Source of the DNA: an uncultured Thermoproteales archaeon
Lineage (GTDB): Archaea; Thermoproteota; Thermoprotei; Thermoproteales; Thermoproteaceae
Assembly: GCA_938027595.1 (NCBI GenBank)
Contig: CALJAK010000007.1
Coordinates: 203,982-267,981, forward strand
Direction: 5' to 3'
DNA length: 64,000 nt
Shown here one piece after another: positions 17,944 through 42,868 of this stretch. The notes beneath the pieces were generated by a model, which saw nothing but the letters and a program-made list of their open reading frames with translations, was not told the origin of the DNA and did no database searches. A program made the position numbers and the translations under genes. Position 1 is the first letter of the stretch. The number at the start of each line of letters is the position of its first letter.

Positions 17944-19325
17944 GCCGCCATTGCCTCAGCTACTTGGTCAAAGTCATACGGCGGCGTGAAATGAGCCGTA
18001 ATGCGTCCGCGAGACATCACGTATATCTTGTCCACTTTCTCAATTGCCTCTTCCACGTCTTGTAAACTCAACACAACGGCGCCGCATCTCTCTCTCACAA
18101 TTTTGTAAAACTTCTCAGTGGTCTCCATGTCTAACCCCCGGGTGGGGTAGGAGGCCACCAACACAGTTGGCTTCTGCAGCAGAATTTCGCGAGCTAGTAG
18201 TAGTTTCTGTTGATTCCCCCCAGAGAGCGCCGCTGCTCTCTCGCGTACGTCCGGCACGTCGATGTCTAAGATTTCAATGACTTCTCTCAACTTCTCTCGA
18301 CAGTTTGTTGTACACCTCACTTTGAAGTTGTCTAAAACACTGAGTTCTCTCGCGAGTGCTCTACTGCGATCTTCGGGGAGGTAAACAACGCCCCGTTTGA
18401 GAAATTCTACATATGGCTTTCCAGACATGTCAAACCCCTGGAGATATATCTTTCCCCCCCGCACTCTCTTGAAGCCGGAAAGCAACTCCATCAACTCGTC
18501 TTGCCCATTGCCAGCCACGCCCAGCACAGCCACAACTTCGCCACTGCGGACAGTCACCGAGCTGTCGAACACTCTTTCGCCAACTAGATTTTCTGCTCGG
18601 TACACAGTGTCTCCCGCGACTGTCTTCTCTCTCCTACTCCTCACTACCGCCGTTTGGAACATAGCTTCTAGGAGTTCTCTCTCGTCAAAAGGTTTTCGGA
18701 ACTCTCCCACTTGCCTCCCCCGCCTGAGTACTGTGATTCTGTCCGCCACTCTCACCACCTCTCTGATTTTGTGTGTTACAAAAACCACAGCTTTCCCCAT
18801 GTCGGCTAGTTTCCTCACTAGAGTGAGGAAGGCGTCTACCTCTCTGGGGCTGAGGAGAGCCGTGGGTTCGTCCATGAGGAGAATTTCACTATTTTTAGCT
18901 AACGCTTTCAACACTTCCACTCTCTGCCTCTCCCCCATAGTCAATTGTGTGACGGCTCTATCTAGAGGTATCTCAATCTCAAGCAACTCGCTGTATCTCT
19001 CCACCTCCCCCAATTTGACGCCAGCTAGCTCCAAATTCTCTCTCACAGTTAACGTAGGCACTAGAGCGAATTGTTGAGATATGAGCGAGATGCCGAGTTT
19101 GTTGGCGTGTCGTGGAGATTTTATCTCAGTCTTGACGCCGTTGATGAAAACATCCCCACTGTCTGGCAAATATACGCCGTAGAGAATAGATATCAATGTA
19201 GACTTCCCAGCGCCGTTCTCACCCAAGAGACCGTGCACTTCTCCACTCTTCACTTGGAAATTTACCCCATCTAGCGAGACTACGCCGGGAAAAACTTTCC
19301 TTACGTTTTTAACTTCGAGAATCAT
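17940..19325 (-). CDS. BMP-family ABC transporter ATP-binding protein (two ABC domains)
   Basis: 461 residues from the ATG at 19325, which overlaps the receptor gene stop (TAATG). The first ABC domain has Walker A LLGENGAGKSTL near residue 33 and Walker B ILLMDEPTALL. The signature of this half is diverged (LTMGERQRVEVL). The second domain has a degenerate P-loop (VLGVAGNGQDEL) but a clear LSGGNQQKLLLA signature, as in RbsA-type proteins. It powers the BMP importer. An upstream in-frame opening to 19358 lies inside the receptor gene and was not used. Confidence 0.92.
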   Translation of the reverse strand: MILEVKNVRKVFPGVVSLDGVNFQVKSGEVHGLLGENGAGKSTLISILYGVYLPDSGDVFINGVKTEIKSPRHANKLGISLISQQFALVPTLTVRENLELAGVKLGEVERYSELLEIEIPLDRAVTQLTMGERQRVEVLKALAKNSEILLMDEPTALLSPREVDAFLTLVRKLADMGKAVVFVTHKIREVVRVADRITVLRRGRQVGEFRKPFDERELLEAMFQTAVVRSRREKTVAGDTVYRAENLVGERVFDSSVTVRSGEVVAVLGVAGNGQDELMELLSGFKRVRGGKIYLQGFDMSGKPYVEFLKRGVVYLPEDRSRALARELSVLDNFKVRCTTNCREKLREVIEILDIDVPDVRERAAALSGGNQQKLLLAREILLQKPTVLVASYPTRGLDMETTEKFYKIVRERCGAVVLSLQDVEEAIEKVDKIYVMSRGRITAHFTPPYDFDQVAEAMAA

Positions 19326-20602
19326 TAGGGGAGTTGTCCGTAGCCCTCCACGTACCAATCCATGTCGTACAACTGATCTTTACTCAATCTAAGCCTCTCC
19401 CCCACTCTCAACTCGCCTTTCATATCTCTCAGGGGGCCAGTGAAGGGGTCCCACACCCCCTCTATGACCTCCCGCCTCCTCTGCTCTACGCGAGTCCGCA
19501 CGTCGGCCGGCACGGCGGGGTTTATGGGCATAACTATATCTGTGGGGTTTTCTCTGTGGCTGTAGTGTACATATGCCTGCTTCATGCTCCACCAGTAGTC
19601 TCTAGGCCTCTCCGGCGGCCACTCGGCCCATATAGACATGTCGCCAGACACCCACGCCAAGTACGCTCTGACCACCATCTCTACGTATAGAGGCCCCCAG
19701 TTGACTATTTGCCCAGTGAGATGCGCCATGGGTCCATACTGAGACATGTCTGAGTAGTGAGAGAAAGACCAAACCGGCCGGCCGCGCTTCTGGAAATCCT
19801 CAGCCACTTGCAACACCGCGGGGCTGTCTTCTGTAAACGCCAACACGTCCGCTTTGTTAGTCTCCACTAACGTGGTGGCTGCCTTCTTAGCGCCCTCTGG
19901 GTTGTACCAACTGCCCAACTCAATTACGTCCATGGTGACTCTGGGGTTGACTTCCCTAGCGCCGAGCAGAAAGGCGTTCATGTGTCTAATGACTTCCGGC
20001 AGCTTCGCAAACGCCGCGACGTAACCCAATTTGTTTGTCTTAGTCATCCTCCCCGCCACGATGCCGTTTAGGTAGTAAGCCTCGTAGAGATCTATGAAAT
20101 ACTCGGCGAAGTTTTTCAAACGCTTCCACTCATCTATGTCTTTGAAGTAGCCAGAGCAATGGGCGAAGAACTTGTCTGGAAACTCCGCCGCGGCTCTCTT
20201 TGTGCCATCCATAAAGCCGTAAGACGTGGTGAACACCATGTGCGCGCCCCCATCGATAGCTTTCTTTACATATGTGTATGTCTCTCCCTCAGGTACGCTC
20301 TCCACGTACTTAGTCTCGACAATACACCACTTCTTGGGGTCTGGGCAGAGAGATCGCTCTAGATACCTCCTACCCAAGTCGTGGGCGTGTGTCCAGCCAT
20401 AATCGCCGATGGGTCCAACGTATAGGAAATGTATCCGCATTTTCGGGAGCCCAGTTGTCGTCTTCTCGGCGTCTGTCGGCGTGGTGGTTTTCTCCACCGC
20501 AGTTTTCGCACTTTGGAGAGCTAGATATGTAGTTCCAGACCCAACCACGGCGCCAGTTATGAAAGAAGCCACTGCTTTGAGCCAATCTCTCCTCGTCGCC
20601 AT
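19325..20602 (-). CDS. BMP-family substrate-binding protein with Tat-like signal
   Basis: 425 residues from the ATG at 20602, about 25 bases after TATATATTTC. The N-terminus MATRRDWLKAVASFITG has a twin-arginine-like motif followed by a hydrophobic stretch. A Thr/Lys-rich linker (KTTTPTDAEKTTT) may tether it outside the membrane. The mature part begins with MRIHFLYVGPIGDYGWTHAH, matching the BMP/PnrA fold (GPxxDxGW), and contains DVLAFTEDSPAVLQVAE. It captures the solute for the three downstream transporter genes. Members often bind nucleosides; the ligand here is inferred only. Confidence 0.9.
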   Translation of the reverse strand: MATRRDWLKAVASFITGAVVGSGTTYLALQSAKTAVEKTTTPTDAEKTTTGLPKMRIHFLYVGPIGDYGWTHAHDLGRRYLERSLCPDPKKWCIVETKYVESVPEGETYTYVKKAIDGGAHMVFTTSYGFMDGTKRAAAEFPDKFFAHCSGYFKDIDEWKRLKNFAEYFIDLYEAYYLNGIVAGRMTKTNKLGYVAAFAKLPEVIRHMNAFLLGAREVNPRVTMDVIELGSWYNPEGAKKAATTLVETNKADVLAFTEDSPAVLQVAEDFQKRGRPVWSFSHYSDMSQYGPMAHLTGQIVNWGPLYVEMVVRAYLAWVSGDMSIWAEWPPERPRDYWWSMKQAYVHYSHRENPTDIVMPINPAVPADVRTRVEQRRREVIEGVWDPFTGPLRDMKGELRVGERLRLSKDQLYDMDWYVEGYGQLP

Positions 20603-20667
20603 GACAATCACTTAAAATAGAAATATATACTCTTCACTTGTGAATAATGAGATTTAAACGTACACTT

Positions 20668-20724
20668 GAATCAGATACCCTAGGACCGGTCACATTTCAC
20701 ATGGGCATGACTCTCATCACGTTA
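20668..20724 (-). ncRNA. candidate C/D box sRNA
   Basis: On the minus strand a C box GTGATGA (20720-20714) and a D box CTGA (20674-20671) are 50 bases apart end to end, the usual size. TTTATTTATATG lies 15-27 bases upstream of the C box, at the end of the beta-CASP gene, and could promote it. The guide before the D box is GGTCCTAGGGTAT, which complements ATACCC as found in the 16S 790 loop, but only about six bases match well. Internal C' and D' boxes are weak. Confidence 0.4.
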
Positions 20725-20732
20725 CATCATGT

Positions 20733-21647
20733 TCATATAAATAAAGGTGGAGGTATTCGATACGCCCTAATCCCCATCTTTCTGAGACCCCCCGCCAATC
20801 TCTCGGCGAATCCATAGACGGTGTAAACCAATTTGGGGGAGGACTCTAGAGCGAATTCAAGCAAACCTCCGTAATCACTGTGGTCGCTGAGGGGAATTCC
20901 GTAGACGCCATTTCCAGCCCCCCCAACGGCGTGCCAACCACTCACTTCGATTTTGAAGTAACCCGCTGGCGCATGTCTAACGCTCGGCACTATCAACACG
21001 CCGTCGCCCCCACCGCTGGAGATGCCCAGTGCTGAGTTGTATCTCGCTATGGATTTGTGGACGCCAGCCCGCGCCCCCAGCAGTTTTGTCACTTCCTGAG
21101 CCTTGCCCAGTGGATATGCGGCTATGGCCACTCCCCCCTCTCTAGAGACCCTCTCCGTCACCTCTAACAATTGGTTGTACACCTCAGCTCGGTTTGGAAA
21201 ACGATAGGCCGGATCGCCGTAGGTGGCTTCCATCACTAACACATCTACTTTCCCCACGGGCTCCGCCGCCTCCGTCAATATAGACCCCACTGTATTGAAA
21301 TCGCCAGTGAACAACGTCTGCACTCCATCTACCTCCACTAGATACATCACACTGCCTAAGATGTGTCCAGCCTCGAATACGGCTATTTGCACTCCGTCTA
21401 GCTCCAACACTCTCCCCGGCGCCACTTCTACACGCCTCGGCGGCATCCCGCCGAATTTGACCGCCAGCGCGGAGAAAGTCTCTCTAGTCGCCACCACGGT
21501 GTGTCTATACATCTGTCTAGACACGTGGTCGCTGTGGCCGTGAGTGACGAGAACGAAATCCACGTCCCCCACGGACCCCGTGGGGTCCACAACGAATTTA
21601 ACTCTGTCACTCACTACATAAATGCCGCGGTTGTAGAAAATGTCCAC
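20733..21647 (-). CDS. metallo-beta-lactamase-fold RNA-processing exonuclease-like protein
   Basis: 304 residues from a GTG start. The HxHxDH metal motif is LVTHGHSDHVSR near residue 35. FEAGHILGSVMYLVE, LFTGDFN and VLVMEATYGDP are the beta-lactamase/beta-CASP features, and SDHSDYGGLLEF is a late His motif. It resembles predicted exonucleases related to mRNA 3'-end processing factors but lacks the KH domains of archaeal CPSF. A TATA-like CTATAAAAAC lies upstream. The end of the gene contains the AT-rich element proposed to promote the sRNA. Confidence 0.82.
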   Translation of the reverse strand: MDIFYNRGIYVVSDRVKFVVDPTGSVGDVDFVLVTHGHSDHVSRQMYRHTVVATRETFSALAVKFGGMPPRRVEVAPGRVLELDGVQIAVFEAGHILGSVMYLVEVDGVQTLFTGDFNTVGSILTEAAEPVGKVDVLVMEATYGDPAYRFPNRAEVYNQLLEVTERVSREGGVAIAAYPLGKAQEVTKLLGARAGVHKSIARYNSALGISSGGGDGVLIVPSVRHAPAGYFKIEVSGWHAVGGAGNGVYGIPLSDHSDYGGLLEFALESSPKLVYTVYGFAERLAGGLRKMGIRAYRIPPPLFI

Positions 21648-37773: not shown

Positions 37774-38474
37774 TCGACAGCCACGTCCACTGTCACGAAT
37801 TTCCGCCGGAGGAGCTTGAGGAGTACAGGCGGGAGTGGAGGTTAGTCTGCGTCTCGGACGACTTGAACTCCTCCATGGCCACCCTACGGTTGGAGGGTGT
37901 AGTGAAATGCGTCGGCGTCCACCCGTGGCAAGTGGAGAGGGCGGACCCCACAACGCTGAGTCAGATAGCGAACGTCGTAAATAGGGGGGACGTCACGTGC
38001 TTAGGCGAAGTTGGGTTAGACAGGAAGTTCACTCCACATAGTTACGACAAGCAGCTTGAGTACTTCAGGCGTTTTCTACAGTTAGCTAGAGAATTCGGCC
38101 TGGCGTTGAACGTCCACGCCGCCGGCGCTTGGTTGGAGGTAGTGGAAGAACTGCGGCGGGTAGATGTAGACAAGGCGTTGATACATTGGTACACTGGCCC
38201 TCTGTCGTTGTTGGAAGAGTTGAGAGATTTGGGGTTCTACATATCTATAAATCCGGCGGTGGTAATTCAGAAAAAACACCAAGAGGTAGCCAAGTCTGTA
38301 GATAGGCGGATTGTGGTTGTGGAGAGCGACGGCCCCTATCTCTATAGAGAAATGCGGCTAACGCCGGCGGCGATACATAAAACTATAGAGAAATTAGCAG
38401 AACTTTGGGAAATGCCGCAAGTGGAGGTGGCGGAAGTGGTCCGGAGAAACGCCGTGAGGTTATGGAAGCTTTGA
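37767..38474 (+). CDS. TatD-family metal-dependent hydrolase
   Basis: 235 residues. MLIDSHVHCHEF supplies the HxH metal pair, CLGEVGLDRKF the Glu, ALNVHAAGAW and ALIHWYTGP two His, and VVESDGPYLY the Asp, a full TatD set. Characterised members are DNases or deoxyribonucleases acting on 3' ends. The start overlaps the oxidoreductase end by 7 bases. The 3' end overlaps the phosphatase start by 13 bases, so the three genes are linked in translation. Confidence 0.82.
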   Translation: MLIDSHVHCHEFPPEELEEYRREWRLVCVSDDLNSSMATLRLEGVVKCVGVHPWQVERADPTTLSQIANVVNRGDVTCLGEVGLDRKFTPHSYDKQLEYFRRFLQLAREFGLALNVHAAGAWLEVVEELRRVDVDKALIHWYTGPLSLLEELRDLGFYISINPAVVIQKKHQEVAKSVDRRIVVVESDGPYLYREMRLTPAAIHKTIEKLAELWEMPQVEVAEVVRRNAVRLWKL

Positions 38475-39280
38475 CAGACTTACTTTCGAAAGTGCGGGAG
38501 AAATCCACGGCGTTAGTGCCGAGACTCGAGGGGGTCTACACGGCCGTGGGGGATCTCCACGGCGATTTGAAAACACTAGAGTTAGTGCTTAAGGAGTGGC
38601 CACCCCCCTATCTCTTTCTGGGGGATTACGTGGATAGGGGTAGTTGGGGACTGGAGGTAATTACGCAAGTCTTCCAACTAACTGTCGAGGGTAAAGCCGT
38701 GGCGCTGAGGGGAAATCACGAATCGCCACTCATGAACATCGACGGGGGGTTCCTAGACGAGTTATGTAGGAAGGTGGCTAACTGCGGCGCTGTGTTTAGA
38801 GAATTTGAGAAAACCTACGCCCGCCTACCTCTAGCCGCGGTAGTCAACCAGCGAGTTGTAGCCATCCACGGGGGTGTGCCCCTTAGAGACGACATGACGC
38901 CGGCGGCGTTGAGCGATTTAGAGAAAGCAGAAGAACTCAGAATTCCAGAGGATCCGATAGCTTTCCAAGCGTTGTGGAACGATCCCTGTCTCTGTGACGA
39001 CTATCAACCGAGCCCCCGCGGCTGGGGAGCGTGGCTGTTCGGCAGGAGAGTTACCCATGCGTTCCATAGACAACACAAAACGCAGATCTTGCTGAGGGGA
39101 CACACATATCTACCGTCTGGCTGCGCAACCCATCACGACGGTGCGGTGGTCACAATCTTCACCTCCACGGTGGGTCCATACAGAAAGACAAAACCCAAAA
39201 TCGCCCTGGTGAAAAGCGGCGTGGAAGTGGTAGACTTAACTACCAGAGAGTTTGTCAACTGCTCTAACACTCACCTCTAA
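38462..39280 (+). CDS. PPP-family serine/threonine protein phosphatase
   Basis: 272 residues from the ATG at 38462, within the end of TatD. Motifs are VGDLHGDLKTL, FLGDYVDRGSWGLE, LRGNHESPL, and late VAIHGGVPL and LLRGHTYLPSG, giving the two-metal active site. It is a cytoplasmic protein phosphatase of the archaeal PP1 type. Its targets are unknown. The 3' end overlaps the convergent dCTP deaminase by 17 bases. Confidence 0.9.
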   Translation: MEALTDLLSKVREKSTALVPRLEGVYTAVGDLHGDLKTLELVLKEWPPPYLFLGDYVDRGSWGLEVITQVFQLTVEGKAVALRGNHESPLMNIDGGFLDELCRKVANCGAVFREFEKTYARLPLAAVVNQRVVAIHGGVPLRDDMTPAALSDLEKAEELRIPEDPIAFQALWNDPCLCDDYQPSPRGWGAWLFGRRVTHAFHRQHKTQILLRGHTYLPSGCATHHDGAVVTIFTSTVGPYRKTKPKIALVKSGVEVVDLTTREFVNCSNTHL

Positions 39281-41124: not shown

Positions 41125-41346
41125 ATGCCAGTCCGAGTGAAAATTGACCAGAGTAGGTGTGTAGTTGCACACTTCTGTCTCTTCTACGCCCCGGCGGTGT
41201 TTGTCACTGGCGACGGGGGGAAACCCACAGTGGCGAGGGAGTATGCCGAATCTCCCGACGTTGGAGTTGTGCCAGACGAGCTCTACAACCAAGTGCGGGA
41301 GGCTGAGTTGCATTGTCCATCTAAAGCTATCAAAGTGTACAGATGA
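41125..41346 (+). CDS. [3Fe-4S]-type ferredoxin
   Basis: 73 residues. RCVVAHFCLFYAPAVF has C12-x5-C18, and the third Cys is C64 in HCPSKAI. This C-x5-C...CP pattern is that of single-cluster [3Fe-4S] ferredoxins, which lack the second Cys of the CxxCxxC motif. The ATG follows aaatttaaatatag by about 25 bases. It overlaps the HAD phosphatase start (ATGA), so the pair is co-translated. Partner enzyme is unknown. Confidence 0.8.
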   Translation: MPVRVKIDQSRCVVAHFCLFYAPAVFVTGDGGKPTVAREYAESPDVGVVPDELYNQVREAELHCPSKAIKVYR

Positions 41347-42020
41347 GAGTTGTAGTTCTAGACGTCGATGGAGTCATAACGCCGTTTAGGTCAGCTTGGC
41401 AGCGGCTGCACGCTATTTTAGACACAGACGGCTCGCTGAACCGCGAGTTGTACCGCAAAGCGCTTATTGATTACTACGAGTGGGCTCTCTACGACACTTT
41501 GTTGTGGCACGGAGTGCCCAGTGCGTTTGTAAATGCATACCTCCGCCCCCGCCCCGGCTTCCATGCGTTGTGTAACGTGTTGAGAGAGTCTGGCGTGTAT
41601 ACTGTAGCCATCTCGGCGGGGGTGGGATACACGCGCCGTTTGTCTCACTGTTTCCACTTCTACATTGTGAATGACTTGATCTACAGAGACGGCGCTGTGG
41701 AGACTGTGGCTGTGGCGGTGAGCGATAGTAACAAAGACGTAGTGTTAGACAGAGTTCTCAATCTGTTGGGAGTCGGCTGGGGAGAAGTCATAGCCATCGG
41801 CGACGGCGAGGCAGACTTGCCGATGTTAAAGAAGGCGGGTTACTCCATTGCGTTTAACCCAGCCAGCGAGGAGATTGCCAGAGCCGCCAAGTCGGTGATT
41901 AGGTCAGACACACTCCACCCACTGGCTAAATATTTAAAGGCAATATTGAACAGTGATGAACACTTCCGACCGGGACAAGTGACAGAGCCGTCCCAGTCTG
42001 ACCCGTGGAGCGCAAATTGA
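41343..42020 (+). CDS. HAD-superfamily phosphatase (SerB-like fold)
   Basis: 225 residues. Motif I is VLDVDGVIT, motif II is VAISAGVG, motif III Lys is in SDSNKDVVL and motif IV is IAIGDGEADLPML. The cap and spacing suit phosphoserine phosphatase-like members, but substrate is not clear. The last 50 codons are unusually hydrophilic (HFRPGQVTEPSQSDPWSAN). The final 68 bases also contain the C/D box RNA described below. The end overlaps the AbrB-PhoU gene by 16 bases. Confidence 0.82.
   Translation: MRVVVLDVDGVITPFRSAWQRLHAILDTDGSLNRELYRKALIDYYEWALYDTLLWHGVPSAFVNAYLRPRPGFHALCNVLRESGVYTVAISAGVGYTRRLSHCFHFYIVNDLIYRDGAVETVAVAVSDSNKDVVLDRVLNLLGVGWGEVIAIGDGEADLPMLKKAGYSIAFNPASEEIARAAKSVIRSDTLHPLAKYLKAILNSDEHFRPGQVTEPSQSDPWSAN
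41950..42004 (+). ncRNA. C/D box sRNA, predicted guide for the 23S P-loop (G2251 equivalent)
   Basis: C box GTGATGA at 41953-41959 and D box CTGA at 41998-42001 are 49 bases apart end to end. An own TATA box (aaatatttaaagg at 41926-41938) lies about 20 bases upstream. The 11 bases before the D box, GCCGTCCCAGT, pair with ACUGGGGCGGU of the 23S P-loop with G-U wobble pairs. The fifth base upstream of the D box then faces the position equivalent to E. coli G2251, which carries a 2'-O-methyl in E. coli. The RNA lies inside the end of the HAD gene and stops just before the next gene's GTG. The internal C' box is GTGACAG-like, and D' is unclear. Confidence 0.75.
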
Positions 42021-42868
42021 TAAAAATCGGTGGGAGGTCTCTAGGCGTCATTATCCCCAGCGAATGGACGCGGCGTCATGGTTTAACCGCCGGGTCGCAA
42101 GTGAGGTTGCTGGCAGAAAACGACATGTTGATCATATCGCTAGTGGACAGACCCAAGGAGCGGGTTAAAGTTTCTGGCGACGACGTGGAGAAATTGACGC
42201 GAGATATCATTGCGTATTACGTAGAGGGGGTAGATGAATTGGAAGTAGACACGCGCCACTTCTCTACAGTGGTGACTAGGATAGAGTCAAAGTTGCCGGG
42301 GGTGGTGGCTATGGACACTGGCGGAGTTTTGAAATTGAAAATCGTCACTAAGAGAGACATAGACGTGGAGGAGGTAATCAACAGCATGTACACCACCGTA
42401 GACGTCATGTTTACACTATTTCTAAAGTTGTTGAGAGAGAGCGACAGAGAAATTGCCGCCGAGATACTGAGGCTGGATGACCAGTTAGACAGACTTTACT
42501 TTCTGGCGCTGCGTACTGTTAAGAAGAGTTTCGCGAGCTACATATACACCATCACGGCGAAGAATTTAGAACACGTGGGAGACGCCATAGACAGAGCCAC
42601 CAGTTACTACCTACAGACGGAATCACGCTGTGGGGAAATACTAGACATATTCAACAAAGTTTATCAATATCTACAAGTCGCATTCGCCGCATTCCGCACC
42701 GGCGACCAGCGCCAAGCGCTACGGGCGTTGATAGAGCGGCCTAGACTAGAGCGGGAGGTGTTGAAGATACAGTGTCCACAAGCCACGGGGTTTGCACATG
42801 AAGCGGCCTCCATCGTGGGGTTTGCCGCAGACATAGCTGAAGCTGCCTACTCCAAAACAATAAAATGA
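42005..42868 (+). CDS. AbrB-PhoU domain protein (phosphate-type regulator)
   Basis: 287 residues from a GTG. Residues 1-45 form a SpoVT/AbrB-like swapped hairpin (LIKIGGRSLGVIIPSEWTRR), and a PhoU-like helical domain follows (EILRLDDQLDRLYFLALRTVKK, NLEHVGDAIDRA). Archaeal proteins of this type are thought to link DNA binding to phosphate or membrane-transporter control; this is known only by family similarity. It begins 4 bases after the C/D box RNA and overlaps the DUF1614 gene (ATGA). Confidence 0.83.
   Translation: MERKLIKIGGRSLGVIIPSEWTRRHGLTAGSQVRLLAENDMLIISLVDRPKERVKVSGDDVEKLTRDIIAYYVEGVDELEVDTRHFSTVVTRIESKLPGVVAMDTGGVLKLKIVTKRDIDVEEVINSMYTTVDVMFTLFLKLLRESDREIAAEILRLDDQLDRLYFLALRTVKKSFASYIYTITAKNLEHVGDAIDRATSYYLQTESRCGEILDIFNKVYQYLQVAFAAFRTGDQRQALRALIERPRLEREVLKIQCPQATGFAHEAASIVGFAADIAEAAYSKTIK

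Follow-up and report, generated by a model that had tools for sequence, protein, structure and literature searches.

The 49-nt element on the + strand at 41953-42001 of the window, as we call the whole 64-kb stretch of archaeal DNA analysed here, is very probably a genuine dual-guide C/D box sRNA gene, whose D guide is predicted to address the 23S rRNA P-loop nucleotide equivalent to E. coli G2251 and whose D′ guide probably addresses the equivalent of G2276. The window was taken from a 1.24-Mb draft genome that is 96.5% complete and that, by inference, belongs to a heat-loving archaeon of the Pyrobaculum group. On the + strand, the 49 nt are parsed as GTGATGA / ACACTTCCGACC / GGGA / CAA / GTGACAG / AGCCGTCCCAGT / CTGA, and the element with its two flanking genes comprises the following features.

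41343..42020, + strand: ORF of a HAD-family hydrolase, 225 aa (Pfam PF08282, PF00702, PF12710)
41931..41938, + strand: TATA-like TATTTAAA, inside HAD codons, a possible promoter, unproven
41953-42001, + strand: complete C/D box sRNA with the box order C, D′, C′, D, by direct reading
41953..41959, + strand: C box GTGATGA, by direct reading, invariant in 10 of 10 genus sRNA sequences
41960..41971, + strand: D′ guide ACACTTCCGACC, pairing with UAUCGGGGGUGC of its own 23S through 9 bp, including 2 G-U; D′+5 corresponds to E. coli G2276
41972..41975, + strand: D′ box GGGA, which is TTGA, TCGA or CTGA in relatives, with only the GA half conserved
41979..41985, + strand: C′ box GTGACAG, its TGA invariant
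41986..41997, + strand: D guide AGCCGTCCCAGT, pairing with its own 23S P-loop; D+5 corresponds to E. coli G2251
41998..42001, + strand: D box CTGA, by direct reading, invariant
42005..42868, + strand: PhoU / MazE-like domain protein with a GTG start (Pfam PF01895, PF04014)

RUGAUGA and CUGA boxes near the two ends are characteristic of archaeal C/D box sRNAs, and direct reading confirmed both the GTGATGA and CTGA boxes and the 49-nt C-to-D span of the original prediction, which had recognised the D guide and missed the second, D′ guide. Both guides are 12 nt long, in agreement with the archaeal pattern of ~12-nt guides that place the fifth base opposite the modified base, with the fit of the D′ guide to G2276 being the weaker of the two. 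The GGGA D′ box of the window sRNA is degenerate, and it is separated from the C′ box by 3 nt, an internal box pair of the kind that archaeal C/D box sRNAs carry. A loose pattern of C/D architecture had two matches in the 64 kb and none in 40 first-order Markov simulations of the window; a family-specific pattern had one match, versus 0 in 100 dinucleotide shuffles.

To place the guides on their target, the 23S genes of the window genome and eight relatives were located by an Rfam 23S search, and the P-loop reads GCUGGGGCGGCA in all nine. The D guide forms 11 bp with its own P-loop, including two wobbles at D+1 and D+7; the ten-base core accounts for ten pairs with one G-U, and the D+1 wobble is an extra pair of the window species. 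The target originally quoted, ACUGGGGCGGU, is the P-loop of E. coli; the window genome's own 23S reads GCUGGGGCGGC. The D+5 rule selects the equivalent of E. coli G2251, as had been predicted, both when the numbering is anchored on the sarcin-ricin loop in E. coli 23S and when the two sequences are aligned directly. We scored D+5-anchored pairing against the genome's own 23S, 16S and 30 tRNA loci, one of which (L053) was left untrimmed, making the background slightly larger, and the best match of the D guide among these rRNAs and tRNAs was its own P-loop. A match as good was reached by 53 of 400 shuffled guides (~13%) against the same RNAs, and by 41 of 266 window 12-mers standing directly 5′ of a CTGA (~15%). 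Complementarity of the D guide by itself is thus weak evidence, short of significance, and the case for the sRNA rests on conservation together with covariation. Among the relatives, the 23S genes at L044, L046, L047 and L048 are 3.6-4.3 kb long versus 3.0 kb, suggesting that they contain introns.

To examine conservation, the HAD orthologue was located in the genus genomes and the DNA 3′ of it was compared, and a wide scan was run with the pattern TGATGA-N20..38-RCCGYCCCRGNCTGA, using the reversed pattern as a control. Of 81 class genomes, 22, spread over five genera, contained the P-loop sRNA, and the reversed control had 0 matches. These 22 comprise 10 of the 11 genus genomes, the member lacking a match being a 130-contig draft (G005), and 12 further genomes of the order. 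Scanning 398 phylum genomes with the core pattern gave no match outside the order, in a search whose exact core would miss P-loop guides with another core elsewhere in the phylum. The ten-base core GCCGTCCCAG is identical in all 22 genomes. In a MAFFT alignment of the loci, with all sequences oriented alike, the ten genus copies share an invariant C box, D box and core, whereas the flanking guide bases, the spacer and much of the C′ and D′ boxes vary. An alignment in related genomes had been proposed as a check on the original prediction, and the retention of C/D boxes and guide core in 22 genomes, along with the D+5 mapping, supports its central claim, a C/D box RNA located where two genes meet and predicted to guide methylation of the G2251 equivalent.

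Window position 41991, at D+7, is T in 22 of 22 genomes and forms a U-G pair with the G2253 equivalent in the P-loop; a C at this position was allowed by the search pattern and would pair better, but it is absent from all 22. A wobble kept in this way would suit a genuine C/D box RNA with a main role other than G2251 methylation, acting instead as a folding chaperone of the P-loop helix or on another RNA that contains CUGGGACGGC. The invariant U at D+7 would be explained because the true target would carry CUGGGACGGC, whereas for a chaperone the two guides, 26 nt apart on the target, could bridge the rRNA, and a chaperone role is discussed in PMC7994747. However, the perfect-match target CUGGGACGGC was not found in the genome's own rRNA or in the 30 scanned tRNA loci and was rejected as an alternative target on that ground, the best match is the P-loop with the classic G2251 site at D+5, and chaperoning and methylation are not mutually exclusive. 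We consider a main role other than methylation improbable and retain G2251 methylation as the predicted function of the D guide.

The target site of the D′ guide, at the G2276 equivalent, lies 26 nt downstream of the D target and is the best match within 100 nt of the P-loop for all nine genus D′ guides tested. Shuffle support for single D′ guides is weak to absent, with 44 to 1613 of 2000 shuffles as good across these nine, and the window-species guide is a borderline case (107 of 2000). The 23S of family f2 reads AUCAGGGG (G026, G021, G023 and G024) in place of AUCGGGGG, the 2276-equivalent target base is A in these four genomes, and all six f2 D′ guides contain CTGAT, not CCGAT. Judged from guide and target sequences, the C-to-T change in the guide and the G-to-A change in the target are compensatory; they fall on precisely the base predicted to receive the methyl group, and they represent one evolutionary event, with both partners found together only in G026. 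Taking these observations together, the window sRNA is probably a dual guide with its D′ guide aimed at the G2276 equivalent.

A second C/D box sRNA candidate lies elsewhere in the window, at 20671-20720 on the − strand, between the − strand ORFs 20733-21647 and 19325-20611. Its D guide forms 10 Watson-Crick pairs with the genome's own 23S, with D+5 at the equivalent of E. coli 2441, and its D′ guide forms 9 pairs 17 nt upstream, at the 2424 equivalent. The candidate thus resembles a dual guide aimed at the peptidyl transferase region.

The sRNA was placed by the original prediction within the end of the HAD gene and 4 bases before the next GTG. The HAD frame does read through the whole sRNA in the window genome, where the TGA of the C box falls in another frame and translation would continue as AGT GAT GAA ... 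AAT TGA, but only 3 nt (42002-42004) separate the D box from the PhoU-like GTG, which the HAD ORF end overlaps by 16 nt. By contrast, the HAD frame in eight relatives goes no further than the C box, ending at the C-box TGA in five and at a TAG immediately upstream of the box in three; in G003 the sRNA follows the HAD gene at a distance of about 170 nt. The D box is about 28-43 nt from the PhoU-like GTG in relatives, and a PhoU-like orthologue is found 3′ of the sRNA across the genus; no named relative of the PhoU-like gene emerged from a protein scan. Similarity to the HAD proteins of relatives ends at about residue 203, leaving the last 22 residues of the window protein outside the conserved part. 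The view that the segment is constrained as both coding and guide sequence thus applies to the read-through seen here and not to an ancestral dual constraint, since the relatives' HAD frames end at or before the C box. On this comparison, the coding overlap appears as a local derived accident, and the HAD extension would be dictated by the RNA, not the reverse, because the conserved part of the protein ends near residue 203. One missing base in the assembly would give the same picture of HAD read-through, since an additional base within 41935-41960 would put the HAD stop back into the C box, where relatives have it.

The TATA-like stretch that had been noted upstream is present but closer to the C box than in relatives. 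It starts 20-22 nt before the C box versus 25-29 nt in relatives with the same layout, in which the identical 8-mer stands 27-29 nt before the C box versus 22 nt here, and the stretch from TATA-like element to C box is 5-7 nt shorter in the window.

In genus g8 and in G014, a calcineurin-like phosphatase gene carries the same sRNA at its 3′ end, usually with the stop in the C box, and among the phosphatase-adjoining P-loop sRNA loci L080, L081, L083 and L096 the stop codon lies in the C box in three of four. A homologue of this phosphatase is encoded in the window at 38405-39280, about 2.7 kb before the sRNA, and G014 has the HAD gene on the same contig as its phosphatase-adjoining sRNA. From this arrangement, the sRNA appears to have moved from one host gene's 3′ end to another without leaving the neighbourhood.

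Since the element stands at the junction of two same-strand genes, and translational regulation by L7Ae in archaea is suggested in PMC5539422, it might instead be an L7Ae-binding kink-turn of the HAD/PhoU mRNA that regulates both genes, not a trans-acting guide. We regard this as very improbable, given that the guide core is conserved beyond the needs of a kink-turn and that the sRNA adjoins other genes in other genera, such as a metallophosphatase gene, so that gene-specific regulation would not be conserved. Least credible of all is an ordinary HAD coding end with C/D-like words and a P-loop match by chance: that the segment is an open reading frame in the window and that ~15% of 12-mers before CTGA match as well would allow it, but the segment is conserved where it is non-coding, in relatives whose HAD frame stops before or in the C box, and its boxes and guide core are invariant with 0 control matches, and we reject it.

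The window genome encodes fibrillarin (E = 1.5e-101). A search for a SpoU-family (RlmB-type) enzyme gave no match in the window genome and was positive in all 14 control genomes, an absence that is not absolute in a genome 96.5% complete. In E. coli, Gm2251 is made by RlmB, a SpoU-family protein enzyme. RlmB thus modifies the same site as that predicted for the window sRNA, but it is a protein-only enzyme of a family unmatched in the window genome.

From the observed architecture, conservation, complementarity, D+5 mapping and fibrillarin gene, we infer how transcription, RNP assembly and methylation might proceed for this dual-guide sRNA. The sRNA would most likely be trimmed out of the HAD-containing transcript, and binding of L7Ae, Nop5 and fibrillarin, expected for this RNA, would protect it; such trimming and protection have been described for other archaeal sRNAs (PMC7994747). 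Transcription from its own promoter, through the TATA-like element in the HAD codons, would also be possible, though with that element closer than in relatives. The D guide would then direct a 2′-O-methyl group onto the G of the P-loop that corresponds to E. coli G2251, and the D′ guide would probably direct one to the G2276 equivalent, 26 nt downstream. Genome compaction would have shifted the HAD frame into the sRNA and drawn the PhoU-like start to 3 nt from the D box.

Beyond this, we raise an extension that we think unlikely, in which, in this compacted genome, each transcript would have to serve either as the HAD mRNA 3′ end, whose sole stop lies beyond the sRNA, or as the guide. Excision would then leave a non-stop HAD message and a severed PhoU-like message, coupling guide supply to both proteins; separately, the invariant D+7 G-U may have been selected for release of the guide from the P-loop.

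For the dual-guide sRNA itself, the sequence comparisons indicate that a site modified by a protein enzyme in bacteria, G2251, is very probably RNA-guided across one archaeal order, to which Pyrobaculum belongs. Within that order the guide core stays fixed, whereas its genomic location, its flanks and its partner guide have drifted. The window also offers a case in which a protein end apparently arose when the frame ran on into an RNA gene already in place. The value of the finding lies mainly in a well-supported annotation.

An Rfam search at the gathering threshold returned one tRNA alone in the window and no C/D model. Two C/D box sRNA models matched the segment below threshold, sR15 (RF01146) with 13.7 bits against a gathering cut-off of 40 and sR17 (RF01144) with 11.3 against 36, and the segment is a member of neither.

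The closest known counterparts are the C/D box sRNAs of Pyrobaculum, of which 110 families have been described in six species (Lui et al. 2018, as cited in PMC7994747). The window sRNA shares with them the box order, the guide lengths, dual guides aimed at sites within 100 nt of each other and the overlap with an ORF 3′ end, and we see no difference in kind. Pyrobaculum dual guides often target sites within 100 nt of each other (PMC7994747), a spacing that the layout of the window sRNA fits, and it is common for sRNAs to overlap an ORF 3′ end whose stop codon falls in the C box (PMC7994747). The family is probably among the 110 of Lui et al. 2018, because it has homologues in several complete genomes of the genus. 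Guides for 23S G2251 were predicted in three archaea in 2015 (Dennis et al. 2015, PMC4644070), and they address the same target nucleotide as the window sRNA. Both the kind of RNA and its overlap with a gene end are therefore already known, and the window sRNA is a well-supported new example of them.
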